Source: Olivibacter sitiensis DSM 17696
GTDB lineage: Bacteria > Bacteroidota > Bacteroidia > Sphingobacteriales > Sphingobacteriaceae
Direction: 5' to 3'
DNA length: 64,000 nucleotides
Assembly: GCF_000427965.1 (NCBI RefSeq)
Contig: NZ_ATZA01000004.1
Span: 62,001 to 126,000 of the forward strand
Below the pieces are notes generated by a model. It was not told where the DNA came from. It did not search any database and worked only from the letters and a program-made list of their open reading frames with translations. Every line of letters begins with the position of its first letter. Position 1 is the first letter of the stretch. Below are positions 6,029 to 29,571 of the stretch, one piece after another. The translations under genes and the position numbers were made by a program.

Positions 6029-7000
6029 CTAGTGATGTTCGAATTTCTCTATCAATAAGTTTCTGAGTCTTGAAAATCTATCGGCAATATATTCAGCAGC
6101 CGTATCCTTAAATTTCGGTTGAGCTGTGAATTCCTGGTACCGCTTTTTGCTGCTATGTAAATCTTCTACTATCCGCATCACTTTTTTTACCGAAAACTTG
6201 TCGTCCCACCTCACTATAGCATCATGATTTAGCACATCGGGCTCTGGTTGACCCTTTGCACCCCAATATATGGGAACAGTACCAGCACGTATTGCTTCGA
6301 ATAATTTTTCCGTAACATATCCATCATGGTTTGTGTTCTCTGGGCAAATATTAAATTTATATTGCTTTAAAAAGCTTATTTTATCATTATTAAATTTAGA
6401 TTTCAGTTCATTCGTATTCGGCATAAAGGAACCCGCACTATCCACCTGTTCTATTTCACTAAGGGCGTGATACAACCTGCTTCGTATCCCGTTTTTATCA
6501 TGACTACATACCATAGCGCAGAACTTGTCTTTTGCAGAACTTCCTGGTTGATAAAAATTGTCCAATACTACTTGTATGTCTCTTTGGTGAAAATCTACGG
6601 CAAAAAAGTAAAACAGCCAAATGGGAAACCGCAAATAGTTAGTAGCATCAATGTAATCAAACCCCAAAGAGATATCAACACTAGACAAGCAATAATCGCG
6701 ATACTCATGAAATCGCCGTACATTCTCGCCAGTATAAAACAGCTTTACTTTACTTTTGCTTTTATCAATAGCTCGTCTTGGACCAAAAACGGACGATAAA
6801 AGCAAGCTATTACTCTTTGTAAGATAATCCGCACAATGATGCACTACAAATTGATATAACCAGACATCTTCCTTTCTTTGAGATTTCCAAAAATTTAGAA
6901 CTTCTATATGTAAATCATCTGGCGCATATGTATATTCCACGTCTTCCTTATACAATTGAAGCTTTTGAAGTAGCCGTATAATTTTGTTTAAAGTTTTCAA
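6029..7000 (-). CDS. GT10 family (alpha-1,3-fucosyltransferase-like) glycosyltransferase
   Basis: The block FNICPENTNHDGYVTEKLFE followed by AIRAGTVPIYWGA (about residues 217-248) is the signature of glycosyltransferase family 10, whose known members transfer fucose from GDP-fucose in alpha-1,3/1,4 linkage. A 323-residue length fits the bacterial form. The N-terminal acceptor domain is divergent. The start is a TTG directly abutting the TAG of the upstream GT2 gene (no spacer), and no ATG lies in the first 40 codons. Fucose as donor is a family-based inference; no fucose-synthesis genes are inside the window. Confidence 0.85.
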   Translation of the reverse strand: MKTLNKIIRLLQKLQLYKEDVEYTYAPDDLHIEVLNFWKSQRKEDVWLYQFVVHHCADYLTKSNSLLLSSVFGPRRAIDKSKSKVKLFYTGENVRRFHEYRDYCLSSVDISLGFDYIDATNYLRFPIWLFYFFAVDFHQRDIQVVLDNFYQPGSSAKDKFCAMVCSHDKNGIRSRLYHALSEIEQVDSAGSFMPNTNELKSKFNNDKISFLKQYKFNICPENTNHDGYVTEKLFEAIRAGTVPIYWGAKGQPEPDVLNHDAIVRWDDKFSVKKVMRIVEDLHSSKKRYQEFTAQPKFKDTAAEYIADRFSRLRNLLIEKFEHH

Positions 7001-7786
7001 CTATTTAGGCATTACTCCATTAACGCATCTTTTCGCACCACTTTCAAGCACTTTTTGATAATTAAGGAAGTTTAGCGACTCGCGACTCCTCTCATTAAAG
7101 GCATGAAATAAATGATAGCATACCGCCAACATCTTGACTCTTTTCTGCATCACGCCATAGTTTACCAATCGGGCTGCCAGCTCGATATCCTCGTGCCCCC
7201 AACCTTCCAAGTCATTATTGTAGCCGTTCACTGCCATAAAATCATCACGCCAAAAGGCGCAATTGCATCCTCTTAAATCATCGGAGCGGCTGCTTTTTTT
7301 CTCAAAAAACGGAGCCAGAAAGGGCGCTCTCAATGAATTTATGCGATTGGTGATACCTTTTGTGAAAAAATGAAAATACGGCGCTCCCCGTCCCAAGAAG
7401 ACCTCTGCCGTCTTCGTCTCGGACAGCAACACACGGCTTCCCTTTACATAAAAACCGCGCTCAGCTACTCGAACATGATCGCGAACAAAATGCCTATTCA
7501 ACACGATATCTCCATCAATCTGGATGATATAGTCACTTTTTGAGATTTTTATCGCTTTGTTCAGGATAATCGTTTTGCGGAAGCCATCATCAGGATGCCA
7601 AACATGATGTAAGGGTATGGCTAGAGTTATTTTTGCCCACTCAGTGATGGCTCTGGTCTCGTCTCCAGAGCCATCGTCTGCAACAAATACTTCATCCGGC
7701 ATATAGCTTTGATAGGCAACAGTTTCCAGCACCCTTCTCAAGGCCATTGGCCAGTTGTACGTAGAAATCAATAGCGCAACCTTCAT
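7001..7786 (-). CDS. GT2 glycosyltransferase with galactosyltransferase-type C-terminus
   Basis: 261 residues. The N-terminus VALLISTYNWPMALRRVLE, FVADDGSGDETR and IQIDGDIVLNRHFV (DGD metal site) define a GT-A domain. The C-terminal half contains RGCNCAFWRDDF and GWGHEDIELAARL (about residues 194-207), the GW-ED motif shared with the Glyco_transf_7C domain of beta-1,4-galactosyltransferases. It is clearly paralogous to the next gene upstream (7793), six bases away, pointing to a tandem duplication. It sits in an operon ending with the GT10 gene. Sugar specificity unknown. Confidence 0.88.
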   Translation of the reverse strand: MKVALLISTYNWPMALRRVLETVAYQSYMPDEVFVADDGSGDETRAITEWAKITLAIPLHHVWHPDDGFRKTIILNKAIKISKSDYIIQIDGDIVLNRHFVRDHVRVAERGFYVKGSRVLLSETKTAEVFLGRGAPYFHFFTKGITNRINSLRAPFLAPFFEKKSSRSDDLRGCNCAFWRDDFMAVNGYNNDLEGWGHEDIELAARLVNYGVMQKRVKMLAVCYHLFHAFNERSRESLNFLNYQKVLESGAKRCVNGVMPK

Positions 7787-7792
7787 GAAAAT

Positions 7793-8692
7793 CTATAAGC
7801 TAACGCGGACAGGTACCGGCCTCAGCACTTCGTGATACCCGCTAAATGCACTGACACGTTGATGTTTTACAACGTATTCGTAATAGTTCAGATTACTTGA
7901 TTCGGATATTCTACTTACCAAATTATGATGTATATGATAACATATGGCCGCAAGTTTCAGATGATATTTGCGAATTCCCTTGTTGATGAAGCGCGCTGCC
8001 AATTCTATATCCTCATGACCCCAGCCATTCAGGTTATTTTCATAACCGTTCACACCCACAAAATCGGCTTTCCAAAAAGCCATGTTACACCCTTTCACGT
8101 CCCTAGGATTACATTCATCGGTGATGATAAGGCTTGATAAAAACGGGATTCTAAGAGCATTAAACCTATTTTTTATGCCCGTGCTAAAAGGGGTAAAGCA
8201 TGCCTTTTTGTTTCTAAGCAATTGTTTTGACCTTTTTGCTCCAATAAGCGCACGGCTACCTTTCACGAAAACCCCCTTGCGTGCGTGTACCAAATGATCC
8301 TTAACAAATCGACTATGGAGAACAATATCGCCATCTATTTGAATAACATAATCACCGGAGGCTGCTGCTATTGCCTTATTTAATATAACCGTTTTACGAA
8401 AACCGAGATCTTCTTGCCAAATATGACGCAAGGCAATAGGGAACATCTTTTGGTATTTTGCAATCAACCTTCCAGTCTCTTTTGCAGAACCGTCATCTGC
8501 TATAATCACCTCATTTGGGAGCTCTTCTTGAATCATTATACTTTCCAAACAGAGCCGCAAAGCTTCTGGCCAATTATAGGTGGAAACCACCAAAGATGAT
8601 GTTGGATATGTAATAGCTTTCAAAATAAATTTAAAAATAAGATATATGATACTCTTGTTTCTCTTCAAAAGATAAAACGAACGCCTTAACAA
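7793..8692 (-). CDS. GT2 glycosyltransferase, tandem paralogue with hydrophobic N-terminal extension
   Basis: 299 residues, aligned with its downstream neighbour through LVVSTYNWPEALRLCLE, IADDGSAKETG, IQIDGDIVLHSRFV, KGCNMAFWKADF and GWGHEDIELAARF. It has about 30 extra N-terminal residues (FYLLKRNKSIIYLIFKFIL) that are hydrophobic and basic and might be a membrane-associating helix. The assigned start is a TTG; another in-frame TTG just before the catalytic domain is possible, so the extension is not certain. First gene of the minus-strand trio 8692-6029, probably adding a residue to the same glycan. Confidence 0.83.
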   Translation of the reverse strand: MLRRSFYLLKRNKSIIYLIFKFILKAITYPTSSLVVSTYNWPEALRLCLESIMIQEELPNEVIIADDGSAKETGRLIAKYQKMFPIALRHIWQEDLGFRKTVILNKAIAAASGDYVIQIDGDIVLHSRFVKDHLVHARKGVFVKGSRALIGAKRSKQLLRNKKACFTPFSTGIKNRFNALRIPFLSSLIITDECNPRDVKGCNMAFWKADFVGVNGYENNLNGWGHEDIELAARFINKGIRKYHLKLAAICYHIHHNLVSRISESSNLNYYEYVVKHQRVSAFSGYHEVLRPVPVRVSL

Positions 8693-9383
8693 AAATGCTA
8701 CATTTTGTTAACATTTCTTCTGATGCAAAAAATATTGACAAAAGAAATTTCACCGCACCGTTTACGAAAGGAAACCTTCAAGAACCCTGCCATTTTTTTG
8801 AATTTTTACAAAAGTTTGTTTTATTCCAATATCAAAAATCAAATTAGGTCTTGCTAATCGACCTACAATCCGTTTCGTATTCCTCACTTCAACAGAAACT
8901 AATCGACCAATACCGCAGAGAGTTTACCTATACCAGAGTGTCCACACACAAACCGATGCTGTTTTTCCTTTTACCACATATTGAAATTATTTTTTTGTTT
9001 ACAGCTATCATCACACTGCAAATGATTCTGCCTAACCTCAAATTAGGACACAAAAACTTTAAATCGGCATGCTATGTTCAGACATTAATGAAGTATCTAT
9101 GGAGCAATGTGCCTCATGTACACATAAGCAAGAGAGCACCCCGCAGACATTTATACGAAACGCACATGAACAAATGACTCTATGAATGCATCGCTGGGAA
9201 AAAGGCTGCCTGACTATTGCCTAATGGAGCTGTTCTTCGAACTACTCGGCGGTAATATCGAACCCCAAATTCGAATCTGGTTGCGGAAAGCACGCTGGTA
9301 CTATCGCGCCTATAGATAATACAATATATGAATAACAAGAACGATATCAATCCCCCAAAATATAGAATACGCCCTCAAGACAA
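8693..9383. other. Gene-poor 691-bp stretch at the edge of the glycan cluster
   Basis: No recognisable gene. Two open frames on + follow each other closely: 8851-9177 (108 residues, one hydrophobic stretch FFLLPHIEIIFLFTAIITL) and 9182-9319 (45 residues, ending GGNIEPQIRIWLRKARWYYRAYR, reading like the basic C-terminus of a longer protein). They are in different frames, separated by a stop. The second in particular looks protein-like and may be the tail of a decayed cluster gene. No promoter or terminator stands out. Confidence 0.35.
9182..9319 (+). pseudogene. Possible gene remnant, 45-codon basic tail
   Basis: Reads from ATG at 9182 to TAA at 9317-9319. The C-terminal portion, rich in Arg, Trp and Tyr, has a composition like the membrane-proximal end of a polysaccharide-biosynthesis enzyme, but I cannot assign a family. 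Considered a remnant because it is too short to stand alone and lies beside a glycan cluster in a gene-poor gap. It could also be chance. Confidence 0.2.
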
Positions 9384-25088: not shown

Positions 25089-25433
25089 TTACTTAAAAAT
25101 GAACTTGACGAATGCAAAGGGAGACCTATCTTTCAGATAGGTGGATGTATGCTCAAATAGGTACGCTTCTCGCTCAAAACTGATCGATCTATACGCCTTA
25201 TGCCAACTGCGGTAGAAAAGTAGCTTTAGTAGCCACTCAAAAAAATAGAGAAGATAAAATGGCAATACCAGAAGTTCCAGCTGCTGCCTCCAATGGATCA
25301 TTTCATGCCTTAGCAATGATGGAGCAATGCCCTTGTGACGAAAATTTTTCTTTACAAGAATAAATGGCCATAAGGATATGGCGTCATAGTTCCAATTGTT
25401 TGAAAGCAAAAATAGAATCCTCCAGCTCCCCAC
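25089..25433 (-). CDS. HExxH-containing small membrane-associated protein, Bacteroidota family
   Basis: 114 residues. LLRHEMIHWRQQLELL contains HEMIH, a zinc-metallopeptidase-like HExxH motif, followed by the hydrophobic helix LLVLPFYLLYFFEWLLKLLFY and the block AYRSISFEREAYLFE. The same order (HExxH, helix, FEREAY with a possible third ligand Glu) is, from memory, seen in a widespread uncharacterised family of Bacteroidota. The start is uncertain: the frame opens with GTG, and a TATTTTTG promoter-like motif lies a few codons inside. Proteolytic activity is only a suggestion. Confidence 0.7.
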   Translation of the reverse strand: MGSWRILFLLSNNWNYDAISLWPFILVKKNFRHKGIAPSLLRHEMIHWRQQLELLVLPFYLLYFFEWLLKLLFYRSWHKAYRSISFEREAYLFEHTSTYLKDRSPFAFVKFIFK

Positions 25434-25463: not shown

Positions 25464-26861
25464 CTAAAAGGATGTGACAATACGCACTCCACCATACTGG
25501 AAGTTCATGTTTTGATTATTGATCCTACCAACCGGCAATTTATAGAAAGGTTCCACGGATAGGCCTATTCTGCTTGACAAAGGGATTTTCTGTCCTACGG
25601 AAAAATTCAAAAACGTCGAATATCCACTTTCCTTTAATGGGGTCTCAGCAGTAGATTCAGTAGTTCTGACCGTCCTAATTTCCGGCACACTATTATAAGC
25701 CAATCCCTGAGCAAGGACCACCTGACTATTGTCAAACTGGGAAACATAATTATTAAACCTATTTTCCCTAAGCACGGTAAATACGGAAGCGCCTGCACCT
25801 ACATACAGATTCCGCATTAGATTGTATTTGAAATCGATGGGAATATCCAAACCAATTACATTGGAACTTATGGATGTCAATTCCTTTTGCCCAACCACAG
25901 CCATTGTTTTCGATTCCAACCTGCTATCCTCTAGAGCGGCAGCATTCATCAAAACCTGCCTGCTATTACTTCCGTTAACACTGTTGTTAGCCACGTTCAA
26001 ATCCACCACGGATAAGCCAGACCCTACAGATAACTTATCGCTTATTTGATAAGCCAAAGTTACCCCACCCCCAAGATTCACTTTCTCTTCAGTCATAACT
26101 GGCGATACCACTACGCCAAAGCCCCACTTCCTACTTTTATCGGCCTTGTTCACAGACACCATGCTTCTATCCTCTTGAAATGAATCTTTTTCCAACATCA
26201 TTTCTAAAGAGGATTTTCCACTCACGCTAGCATCGGCTAAAGTATTTTCCACTTCCTCCTTTGAACCAACATAATTGCTGTCTTCCTTTGCTGCTATATC
26301 GGCAGTGGCCAGCTGTTCCTTGTTTGGGCTCCAAATATCTCCGCCTTCAATATCGTTGACCTTTTTCTCCAGCAATTCATCAGAAATGGAGTTCTCGGAC
26401 ACCACATGTCTCTGTGGGCTATTGACGGCCAGTAGTCTAGCACTTAGACTTTGTTCTTTTTCCGCTTTTTTCTTGTTATTGCCTCGTTCTATTCCATCCC
26501 CATTCACAGCCCGATTTCCTTCAGCGTCCTGATCCTGGCCTTTACCTTTCGAAGCATGCTCTTCTTTATCCAGGCTATTGCCACCTTTGTCTGCATGCTT
26601 CTCCTTGTCTGGACTGTTTATCGCAACAAACTGATCATCGATTTCTTTAGGTGCATCATACCACATAAACAAACCAAAACCCAATAAAATTGCTGCCGCC
26701 ACACTCGCAGCATAACGCCACAATACCGGTTTCGACGCCTTAGGAGAGTCTCCATGCCCTTGCGCAAAACGCTCCCATGCACCCTCTTTATAAGGTAATT
26801 GGTGTCCGCGGAGCTGCTCCACCATGTGCTCAATAAGTTCTTTTTTTTGCCTGCTTTTCAT
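25464..26861 (-). CDS. Predicted trans-envelope protein: inner-membrane anchor plus outer-membrane barrel domain
   Basis: 465 residues. A short cytosolic N-terminus (MKSRQKKELIEHMVEQLRGHQ, WERFAQGHGD) resembles the start of Bacteroidota anti-sigma factors. Then comes a single transmembrane helix (YAASVAAAILLGFGLFMWY, about residues 48-66), a charged Lys/Glu/Asp-rich periplasmic linker of about 170 residues, and an outer-membrane barrel-like domain from about residue 245 (WGFGVVVSPVMTEEKVNLGGGVTLAYQIS, LYVGAGASVFTVL) ending FQYGGVRIVTSF. It directly follows the ECF sigma factor gene and may regulate it. Start is the ATG at 26861. Confidence 0.75.
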   Translation of the reverse strand: MKSRQKKELIEHMVEQLRGHQLPYKEGAWERFAQGHGDSPKASKPVLWRYAASVAAAILLGFGLFMWYDAPKEIDDQFVAINSPDKEKHADKGGNSLDKEEHASKGKGQDQDAEGNRAVNGDGIERGNNKKKAEKEQSLSARLLAVNSPQRHVVSENSISDELLEKKVNDIEGGDIWSPNKEQLATADIAAKEDSNYVGSKEEVENTLADASVSGKSSLEMMLEKDSFQEDRSMVSVNKADKSRKWGFGVVVSPVMTEEKVNLGGGVTLAYQISDKLSVGSGLSVVDLNVANNSVNGSNSRQVLMNAAALEDSRLESKTMAVVGQKELTSISSNVIGLDIPIDFKYNLMRNLYVGAGASVFTVLRENRFNNYVSQFDNSQVVLAQGLAYNSVPEIRTVRTTESTAETPLKESGYSTFLNFSVGQKIPLSSRIGLSVEPFYKLPVGRINNQNMNFQYGGVRIVTSF

Positions 26862-26891
26862 CAAAAATGAAAACTATAATTTTTTTTAATT

Positions 26892-27494
26892 TTAAGAAGT
26901 CTTCTGAACAAAAGTCTCCAAATAATATTTTCTCAGCTTTTGTTTTGCCCTTGTCAAATATGTTCTAGAAGTGCTGTCAGGGATTTGCAATGCCTTGCCT
27001 ATCTCCTCATGCGAATACCCTTCTATCTCAAACATGTTAAAAATCAACCGCTGTATCTCTGGTAGCATCTCCAACAGTTTCAGAATATCTTCCGCATACA
27101 AGTCATCTTGGACATTTACCATTACGGGCTGCACTTCATATTCGCCTACTTCATCCAAATTCAACGTAGGCTTCTGCGCCCTAAGCAAATCTATCGACTT
27201 ATTGGCTGCAATACGTGCAAGCCATGCACGAAATGATTTGTCCAGCGCGTCTTCTTCCCCCAAGCGGTTAAATCTATTTATGCTCGAAAATGCTTTTACG
27301 AAGGTTTCATTCACCAACTCTTCAAGATCAAAATCATTTTTCACATACCTGCGCACCACGGCCGCTACATAGCCGTAATACCTCTTATATAGAAAAGCCT
27401 TAGAACGTTCATCACCTACTTGGGCACAGGAGGCCAAAGCACTTTCCAATGACAGTACCTTCGTCTTCTTTATTACACCCAATCGATAATTCAC
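26892..27494 (-). CDS. ECF-type RNA polymerase sigma factor
   Basis: 200 residues. Region 2 contains AFLYKRYYGYVAAVVRRYVKNDFDLEELVNETFVKAFSSINRF (about residues 30-75, with the DxEELVNETF core contact to RNA polymerase). Region 4 is LPEIQRLIFNMFEIEGYSHEEIGKALQIPDSTSRTYLTRAKQKLRKYY, the helix-turn-helix that binds the -35 element. Translation starts at GTG 27494. The next gene downstream, 30 bases on, is the membrane protein with an anti-sigma-like N-terminus, a probable regulatory pair. A TATTTTTG motif lies 88-95 bases upstream. Confidence 0.92.
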   Translation of the reverse strand: MNYRLGVIKKTKVLSLESALASCAQVGDERSKAFLYKRYYGYVAAVVRRYVKNDFDLEELVNETFVKAFSSINRFNRLGEEDALDKSFRAWLARIAANKSIDLLRAQKPTLNLDEVGEYEVQPVMVNVQDDLYAEDILKLLEMLPEIQRLIFNMFEIEGYSHEEIGKALQIPDSTSRTYLTRAKQKLRKYYLETFVQKTS

Positions 27495-27589: not shown

Positions 27590-27827
27590 CAATTTCAATC
27601 TTACACCCCCGCAACAAACCGAACCATTCAACTTATTGCGCATGAGGCTAGACGACATTGCTGTAGTACGAACATGCAAGTAAACATCCTTCAGTTTCTA
27701 TATTTCGCCTTTTTGCATATAGAACGGATTCTCTTGGGAATACGCTACATCCCCTCATGATTTATCCATCCAATGAGGTCAGCTGTTTTATCTATTGCAA
27801 AACCTTCTATTATCGTAATCTAATAGC

Positions 27828-27835
27828 TATTTTTG
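27828..27835 (+). promoter_or_regulatory. -7 promoter element of lysS (TATTTTTG)
   Basis: TATTTTTG fits TAnnTTTG and ends 17 bases before the ATG at 27853. It lies inside the longer open frame from 27757, so the longer frame is not the translated one. Confidence 0.55.
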
Positions 27836-27852
27836 CCCCAAATAAAACCAGG

Positions 27853-29571
27853 ATGAGCAGTTTATTATCAGAACAAGAATTACAACGCCGTGAGGCATTG
27901 AACCAATTGATAAAATTGGGAATCGACCCTTATCCGGCAGCGGCTTTTGACGTCAATGTCACGGCACAGGATATTCACGAAAATTACGAACGAGATAAGC
28001 TAAATTACAAACAGGTATCCATTGCAGGCAGAATGATGAGCAGACGGGTAATGGGAAGCGCTTCGTTTGTGGAGCTTCAGGATGCTACTGGCCGCATCCA
28101 GATATACCTCAATAGAGATGAATTGTGTCCTTCGGAAGACAAGACCCTCTACAATACCGTATTCAAAAAATTAATGGATATAGGCGATTTCATTGGCGTG
28201 AAAGGTTTCGTCTTTACTACCAACTCGGGAACGATATCCATCCATGCGCAAGAACTCGTCTTGCTGTCCAAATCGCTCAAACCCTTGCCCGTAGTCAAAG
28301 AAGCGGAAGGCAAAGTGTTCGATGCCGTAACAGATCCAGAGTTTCGATATCGCCAACGCTACGTGGATTTGGTGGTAAACCCACAGGTAAGGGAAACATT
28401 TGTTAAAATTAGCAAGATCAAAACCGCAATCAGAGATTTCCTCAACGAAAGGGGAGCTCTTGAAGTAGATACCCCCGTATTGCAGAGTATACCTGGCGGA
28501 GCGGCGGCTCGTCCTTTCGTCACGCACCACAATGCCCTGGATATACCGCTATACCTTCGCATTGCCAATGAGCTGTACCTAAAACGGCTTATTGTAGGTG
28601 GCTATGACTGGGTCTATGAATTCAGCCGAAATTTCCGGAATGAGGGTATGGATAGGACGCATAATCCTGAATTTACGGTATTGGAATTTTACGTAGCATA
28701 CAAGGACTACCTTTGGATGATGAATATCACCGAGCAAATGTTCGAAAAAATCGCCTTGGCTACTAATGGCAAGACTACCGTGAAAGTGGGCGACAAGGAA
28801 ATCGACTTTGCTGCCCCCTACAAAAGAGTGCCTATATATGATGCCATAAAAGAGCATACCGGCTTTGACGTGAGCGGAATGGACGAAGAAGCACTTCGGG
28901 ATGTGTGCAAAAAACTGGAAATCCCTGTTGATCCCAGCATGGGAAAAGGTAAGCTGATAGATGAAATATTTGGCGAAAAGTGCGAAAAGCATTACATACA
29001 GCCTACTTTTATCACTGACTATCCCGTAGAAATGAGCCCGCTCACGAAAAAACATCGTAGTAAGGAGGGCCTTGTAGAACGCTTTGAACTAATGATCAAT
29101 GGTAAGGAAATAGCAAATGCGTATTCCGAATTGAATGACCCTATCGATCAGTTAAAGCGATTTGAAGACCAACTCAAACTGATGGAACGAGGTGATGACG
29201 AGGCGATGTTTATCGATTATGATTTCCTACGTGCGCTTGAATATGGGATGCCACCAACTTCTGGCATCGGGATAGGCATTGATCGATTGGCCATGTTGCT
29301 CACCAGTCAGGCCAGCATTCAGGATGTCCTTTTCTTCCCACAAATGAGACCCGAAAAAGTAGTTCGTGCAGCATCGGAAGAGGATTATGAAAAACAGGGC
29401 GTTCCGAAAACCTGGGTTCCGCTACTTCAAAAAATGGGGCTTACAACCATTGAAGCATTAAAAGGAGCAAATCCCAACAAAGTATTTAACGACTTGGGGG
29501 GGCTACGCAAAAAGGCAAAAATAGAAGAACCATTGCCGTCCAAAGAAGAAGTACTGAAATGGTTTGACTAG
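27853..29571 (+). CDS. lysS: Lysine--tRNA ligase, class II
   Basis: Charges tRNA-Lys with lysine. The N-terminal OB-fold anticodon-binding domain (QVSIAGRMMSRRVMGSASFVELQD, about residues 50-75) is followed by the class II catalytic core: RYRQRYVDLVVNP (motif 1), FRNEGMDRTHNPEFTVLEFY (motif 2) and GIGIGIDRLAMLLT (motif 3, about 470). The C-terminus carries an extra segment of about 60 residues after motif 3 (EDYEKQGVPKTWVPLLQKMGLTTIEALKG), a known feature of Bacteroidota LysS. The start at 27853 was chosen for the promoter motif and homology. Confidence 0.96.
   Translation: MSSLLSEQELQRREALNQLIKLGIDPYPAAAFDVNVTAQDIHENYERDKLNYKQVSIAGRMMSRRVMGSASFVELQDATGRIQIYLNRDELCPSEDKTLYNTVFKKLMDIGDFIGVKGFVFTTNSGTISIHAQELVLLSKSLKPLPVVKEAEGKVFDAVTDPEFRYRQRYVDLVVNPQVRETFVKISKIKTAIRDFLNERGALEVDTPVLQSIPGGAAARPFVTHHNALDIPLYLRIANELYLKRLIVGGYDWVYEFSRNFRNEGMDRTHNPEFTVLEFYVAYKDYLWMMNITEQMFEKIALATNGKTTVKVGDKEIDFAAPYKRVPIYDAIKEHTGFDVSGMDEEALRDVCKKLEIPVDPSMGKGKLIDEIFGEKCEKHYIQPTFITDYPVEMSPLTKKHRSKEGLVERFELMINGKEIANAYSELNDPIDQLKRFEDQLKLMERGDDEAMFIDYDFLRALEYGMPPTSGIGIGIDRLAMLLTSQASIQDVLFFPQMRPEKVVRAASEEDYEKQGVPKTWVPLLQKMGLTTIEALKGANPNKVFNDLGGLRKKAKIEEPLPSKEEVLKWFD

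Follow-up and report, generated by a model that had tools for sequence, protein, structure and literature searches.

An ECF sigma factor, a predicted envelope-spanning anti-sigma protein and a candidate envelope regulon in Olivibacter sitiensis

We analysed a stretch of 64,000 nucleotides from contig NZ_ATZA01000004.1 of Olivibacter sitiensis DSM 17696 (Bacteroidota, Sphingobacteriaceae), hereafter the window, to which all coordinates given without a contig refer. In the list of open reading frames (ORFs), an ECF sigma factor gene and a gene for a protein of 465 amino acids (aa) were arranged head to tail, both on the minus strand, with a promoter-like site upstream of the former:

27723..27749, minus strand: predicted autoregulatory ECF promoter TGTAGC-N17-CGTT, a site match upstream of the sigma gene
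26892..27494, minus strand: ECF sigma factor gene, 200 aa, called from the Pfam domains Sigma70_r2 and Sigma70_r4_2, its Das/EcfO-like position and its adjacency to the partner gene
25464..26861, minus strand: gene of the predicted dual membrane-spanning anti-sigma protein, 465 aa, with ATG at 26861 and the stop codon included

The ORF of the 465-aa protein opens with TTG-ATG, and the ATG was chosen as the start. The original prediction, made from the sequence by itself, had placed an ECF sigma gene beside a second gene; both ORFs were found as listed above, and the sigma protein scored above the Pfam cut-offs for its two domains. Its matches in Pfam and NCBIfam were general ECF ones, the specific NCBIfam models among the matches listed staying below their cut-offs. 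For the 465-aa protein, neither a Pfam family above cut-off (two weak matches lay below) nor any NCBIfam match was obtained, and no Pfam FecR match was seen at E up to 1. A search of PDB sequences with the family profile returned 0 matches, and when the own genome was searched with PF13568, the barrel described below was not among the matches. Since neither Pfam nor NCBIfam gave this protein a name, its domain calls rested on structure and relatives.

The immediate neighbours of the pair were a gene for a 114-aa HExxH protein, a DUF4293 gene and a class II tRNA-synthetase gene; no TonB-dependent receptor gene was present among the immediate neighbours examined. The tRNA-synthetase gene (27757-29571, plus strand), which we take to be lysS by name, is divergent from the sigma gene and upstream of it; homologues are located upstream in 21 out of 67 loci of the named-genome scan described below, in 20 of them on the opposite strand. 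The 114-aa membrane-type protein (25089-25433, minus strand; motif HEMIH) is encoded directly downstream of the anti-sigma gene. It was considered as a part of the system and rejected: its gene adjoins the anti-sigma gene in 5/5 same-genus genomes, but the homologues in 15 other genomes have different locations.

Relatives of the 465-aa protein were found in 27 of 60 genomes by the whole-genome search, which covered the class and included the own genome, with full-length relatives at 38-40% identity in the four same-genus genomes. The named-genome scan (alignment A3) gave 67 loci, mostly from Sphingobacterium, Parapedobacter, Pedobacter and Olivibacter; relatives were thus mainly in Sphingobacteriaceae, and all named matches were in Bacteroidota. 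A wider search within the class produced a match in 159 of 295 genomes. Among the matches listed there, full-length ones below E 1e-20 belonged to the same family and one other family, and most of the weaker ones spanned the N-terminal part, several of these proteins ending differently. A single-sequence scan of genome contigs found no relative.

The pairing with a sigma gene was nearly constant. A sigma homologue was located on the same strand and not more than 300 bases upstream in 66/67 named loci, the exception being L095, where the anti-sigma frame is only 148 aa long and the sigma gene 910 bases off. It was likewise adjacent in 30/30 loci of another set, the window locus included, and in 28/28 class-wide loci examined; the 67-, 30- and 28-locus sets overlap.

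Other arrangements exist in the own genome. At L107 (contig C48, 786-3111), a sigma gene is accompanied by a 276-aa one-helix anti-sigma protein lacking a barrel and by a separate 310-aa barrel-type protein, which in one search scored 24.3 bits for PF13568, under the cut-off of 27, and in another was counted over it. This type of anti-sigma protein had a match in 11 of 41 genomes, own included; in each of the other 10, the barrel gene was no more than about 1.3 kb away on that contig, in 9 cases immediately downstream and in 1 upstream. A two-piece version, consisting of sigma factor, one-helix anti-sigma protein and separate barrel protein, coexists in the same genomes. Another sigma/anti-sigma pair, L106 (contig C35, 823-2647), has an anti-sigma protein of 420 aa, the end of which, as we presume, resembles carboxypeptidase-regulatory-like and TonB-C-like parts.

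The promoter-like site was derived by aligning the regions upstream of the sigma genes, which gave TGTAGC-N17-CGTY. It was present in the 450 bases 5' of the sigma gene in 56 out of 68 loci (the window plus 67 others), the window being one of the 56; shuffling gave a mean of 0.02, and the opposite strand four. A relaxed form of the site was present in 60 of the 68, so that the exact N17 site was missing in 12 loci and the relaxed one in 8. A second copy in the window stands at the head of a glycosyltransferase operon:

8676..8702, minus strand: second promoter-like site copy, at the head of the glycosyltransferase operon
6029..8692, minus strand: predicted target operon, with GT2-type genes at 7793-8692 and 7001-7786 and a GT10 fucosyltransferase-like gene at 6029-7000

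Pfam matches within this operon were PF00535, PF02709, PF00852 and PF18025. Because the site overlaps the mechanical ORF start of the gene at 7793-8692, the true start of this gene should lie downstream of it.

Genome-wide, five genomes of the genus Olivibacter were scanned with the pattern TGTAGCR-N16-CGTY, the reversed pattern serving as control. Counts alone show little, with 75 sites in total (11, 14, 22, 14 and 14) versus 58 for the control (12, 18, 12, 8 and 8), the own genome having 11 versus 12. Eight of the 75 were set aside before further counting, namely four sigma promoters and another four that lie near glycan genes at a distance of about 17-20 kb from the pair. Three of these four distant sites (window 8676-8702, G002 and G004) directly precede homologous GT2 genes. 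The distant site is flanked on its opposite side by an hsp15 gene in the window, G002 and G003, whereas the fetched stretch of G004 contained no hsp15. In G003, an exact site copy is located just after hsp15 and the next gene encodes a 337-aa protein, which is not a GT2 and presumably resembles a heptosyltransferase, while G001 shows the order hsp15, an N16 copy of the site, GT2 gene. The site copies at the glycosyltransferase region have the two boxes in common and not the spacer.

Among the remaining 67 sites, 47 were outside ORFs, compared with 9/58 in the control (Fisher p 5e-10), and 40/67 versus 5/58 had a same-strand ORF start within 250 bases (Fisher p 1e-9); the other 20 copies fall inside ORFs. 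It should be added that the reversed control does not contain the TAG of the real pattern, a triplet that reduces coding hits in one of six frames; we judge this effect too small to explain 47/67 versus 9/58. Of the downstream gene families, six were common to three or more genomes and five of these to four, whereas the control yielded one such family, with a site identical in four genomes. Family representatives matched FKBP_C, DUF4397, SIMPL and Glycos_transf_4 (WecA/MraY type) in Pfam, and the representative of L203 had no Pfam match. A lipobox-like motif was detected in 23/40 downstream proteins versus 1/5 in the control. L197 and L206 are duplicates within a single genome and do not differ in either site or protein. 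In the own genome, the WecA-like family alone was present out of the five common to four genomes, and the other non-ORF sites of this genome either precede lipoprotein-like genes or have no ORF of 90 aa after them.

Similar placements were seen in other genera. In G031, 11/16 further sites were outside ORFs, 10 with a close downstream ORF; the genes following the sites included a GT2 gene 58% identical to that of the window, lipoprotein genes homologous to the DUF4397 and FKBP ones, and one for a polysaccharide protein which we take to be CapD-like. In G019, all sites (7/7) were outside ORFs, before an FKBP lipoprotein homologue, lipoprotein-like genes and others that are presumably glycosyltransferase-like and CpsB-like; at its own sigma gene, the upstream site has CGTA as its last four bases. 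Raw totals versus control were 7 versus 12 in G019 and 17 versus 19 in G031, so that the signal of the site lies in position and conservation and not in raw counts. The compared genomes are related, and therefore the shared sites are not independent.

A stricter pattern was counted over 60 genomes, the sigma promoters themselves included. Where a close homologue of the protein was present (11 genomes), it gave 46 sites versus 7 for the control; where the homologue was weaker (16 genomes), 22 versus 6; and where the protein had no match (33 genomes), 10 versus 9. These counts fit a dependence on the sigma factor, confounded with relatedness. Six of the seven sites of G029 within them belong to repeat-like elements; on its contig C1 (270244-273149 and 368776-370352), six site copies of two sequence types lie in apparent repeated elements. 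G008 had one site; the protein had no match there in the 60-genome search and weak ones in the class-wide search.

It is conceivable, and we regard it as rather improbable though worth weighing, that the element serves several sigma factors as a general ECF site, in which case the regulon would not be specific to the pair and the envelope-spanning reading of the anti-sigma protein would still stand. The sole tie of the site to this sigma factor is the region upstream of its gene, the relatives carry several sigma/anti-sigma pairs, and a flavobacterial promoter motif with a CGT box has been suggested for several ECF sigma factors (PMC9723704). Against it, in the own genome four further sigma genes have no such site in the 450 bases upstream, and the stricter sites fall to control level where the protein has no match, a comparison again confounded with relatedness. 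A regulon belonging to the pair itself is preferred, and the sharing of a promoter-like site with genes for surface sugars and surface lipoproteins is a new element beyond the known architecture.

The original prediction had also given the 465-aa protein one transmembrane helix, a linker of roughly 170 residues and an outer-membrane-type beta domain at the C-terminus. All of these were recovered with AlphaFold2, as helix 47-68, a linker of about 172 residues and an OmpA/OmpW-like barrel, and the protein was divided into four parts:

26724..26861, minus strand: residues 1-46, predicted cytosolic tip, with conserved PYKEGAWERF at residues 23-32 and helices at 3-18 and 28-35
26658..26723, minus strand: residues 47-68, predicted single inner-membrane helix, from AlphaFold2 and positive-inside bias
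26142..26657, minus strand: residues 69-240, mostly disordered variable tether, from pLDDT and low identity
25467..26141, minus strand: residues 241-465, predicted outer-membrane-type barrel, counted as 8 strands, with terminal Phe, from AlphaFold2 and structure matches

The alignment given to AlphaFold2 consisted of 49 rows picked from 68 available, and the model had a mean pLDDT of 68.2 and a pTM of 0.51; with this pTM, the model does not predict how the parts are placed relative to each other. Within the parts, two helices were modelled in the tip, and helix 47-68 covers the hydrophobic stretch. The linker had pLDDT below 50 across most of 73-236. In the barrel region (246-464), strand block means were mostly at pLDDT 76-97 and loops at 54-63. 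The strands comprise residues 246-256, 261-272, 277-291, 326-347, 352-378, 394-404 with 414-427, 433-444 and 456-464, and were counted as eight. Long connections (292-325 and 379-393) alternate with short turns, which in the model is the pattern expected if both ends of the barrel face the periplasm.

Comparison of the 49 sequences agreed with this division. Lysine and arginine residues were more numerous before the helix than after it in 48 sequences, with one tie, averaging 4.2 in the 15 residues before and 1.4 after, and a hydropathy scan found no second transmembrane-like segment. Mean pairwise identity was 38% in the tip, 34% in the barrel and 11% in the linker. With full-length relatives in the four same-genus genomes, and with tip and barrel conserved while the linker is not, the architecture is more than chance. 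Linker length ranged between 112 and 212 residues (median 149). A tether of 172 residues has a contour length of about 60 nm, far more than the periplasm is wide, and can therefore cross it with slack. A short helix was modelled at 218-224, just before the barrel (residues 216-226; 26184-26216, minus strand); its L219, M222 and L223 are invariant in the five same-genus sequences, although the linker is otherwise variable.

A single hydrophobic segment ahead of an outer-membrane-type barrel is also what ordinary porins have, and one could read the helix as a long signal sequence that is cut off, leaving an ordinary mature barrel with a disordered tail and the tip as a leftover. We hold this to be very unlikely: the tip is among the most conserved parts of the protein, with W29 and E30 invariant across the 49 sequences, and the gene has an ECF sigma gene as its constant partner.

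Structure prediction, the check that had been proposed for the original prediction, returned a barrel rather than a soluble domain. The top five Foldseek matches were all OmpA, and the best-matching solved structures were 8-stranded barrels of the outer membrane. VIA-align placed Legionella porin III, OprF, OmpA, NspA, PagL and OmpW at the top, with Z from 17.4 down to about 15 (15-17 for OprF, OmpA, NspA, PagL and OmpW). A soluble periplasmic beta domain at the C-terminus, which would make this an ordinary one-membrane anti-sigma factor, is rejected as scarcely credible beside the AlphaFold2 barrel, since soluble beta proteins came lower in the VIA-align list at Z ≤ 11.2 (5ixg, BcnB, rank 28, Z 11.2; 1wub, rank 31, Z 11.0; photosystem II subunits O, PsbO, Z up to 10.8), whereas 29 of the best 30 structures were outer-membrane proteins or designed transmembrane barrels and the C-terminal residue was Phe in 45/49 sequences, four ending otherwise.

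The idea that one polypeptide bridges the envelope is therefore favoured by structure prediction, by the topology statistics and by the constant pairing with an ECF sigma gene, and insertion into both membranes is the part of it that we infer. Very probably, the sigma/anti-sigma pair is of the EcfO-Reo or Das-Dma kind, an envelope-spanning stress switch with a small envelope regulon. Gene pairing, predicted architecture, promoter-like site and conserved neighbours were obtained by computation; the binding of the sigma factor, the signal, the release step and the reading of the site by this sigma factor form the proposed mechanism, which would run as follows. The tip of about 46 residues would hold the ECF sigma factor at the inner membrane, in which the one helix would anchor the anti-sigma protein; the mostly disordered tether of about 172 residues would cross the periplasm, and the C-terminus would form an outer-membrane barrel of 8 strands. 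On disturbance of the outer membrane or of barrel assembly, the state of the barrel may be passed on through the tether and the sigma factor freed. The freed sigma factor would then start its own operon from TGTAGC-N17-CGTT together with a small envelope regulon, comprising putative surface-glycan glycosyltransferases (for an O-glycan of the lipopolysaccharide (LPS) or a capsule), the WecA-like transferase, the FKBP lipoprotein and other lipoproteins. If true, synthesis of surface glycan and output of lipoproteins would be tied to the integrity of the outer membrane by a one-protein route.

Among known systems, FecI/FecR likewise combines an ECF sigma factor with a membrane anti-sigma protein reporting on the outer membrane. 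There, the anti-sigma protein ends in the periplasm and touches a separate TonB-dependent receptor, while the window polypeptide has its own predicted barrel and the pair no TonB receptor among the neighbours examined. The original prediction had set the protein apart from this anti-sigma/TonB-receptor relay, and the contrast holds; the novelty that it implied does not, the layout having been published for Reo and Dma.

Dma2 of Bacteroides thetaiotaomicron is described as having an N-terminal anti-sigma domain, a transmembrane helix, a long disordered tether and a C-terminal barrel, next to an ECF21 sigma factor, with vesiculation and PUL expression as the outputs of Dma (PMC13088901). Dma1/Dma2 with Das1/Das2 share with the window pair the four-part layout and the neighbouring ECF sigma factor; they differ in coming from another order of Bacteroidota, and the output predicted for the window is surface glycan and lipoproteins.

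Reo of Phocaeicola vulgatus is described as an anti-sigma protein predicted to cross the periplasm and to carry an outer-membrane barrel; it and its sigma factor EcfO were named after B. fragilis, and the pair is proposed to sense envelope or outer-membrane stress (PMC9308784, PMC13114119). In P. vulgatus strains lacking a working anti-sigma protein, the LPS reportedly carried more O-antigen repeats and a glycosyltransferase gene from the LPS region was raised; three NigD lipoproteins were in the regulon (PMC9308784, PMC13114119). A recognition motif of EcfO is mentioned as published in PMC7366714. EcfO-Reo resembles the window pair in its barrel-bearing, periplasm-spanning anti-sigma protein, and the regulon predicted for the window is of the same kind, although NigD belongs to the former and the glycosyltransferase operon and WecA-like, FKBP, SIMPL and DUF4397 genes are the targets predicted for the latter. 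Because of this likeness of regulons, we read the window system, by analogy, as a switch that responds to outer-membrane stress and acts on surface glycan and lipoproteins; a one-protein route, if true, would agree with the longer O-antigen in Phocaeicola with a broken anti-sigma protein.

By the anatomical features tested here, with helix, tether and barrel as predicted, the window pair is in the Dma/Reo class, and it is likened to the named members by their described layout. No paper describing a system of this type from Sphingobacterium, Sphingobacteriaceae, Olivibacter or Pedobacter was found among the matches listed in the literature search, and in the portions of the literature examined the class comes otherwise from gut Bacteroidales. 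The envelope-spanning architecture is already known, and what is new is the Sphingobacteriaceae branch and the regulon prediction. With its candidate promoter and short conserved target list, this branch would offer an independent system in which to ask what the barrel senses.
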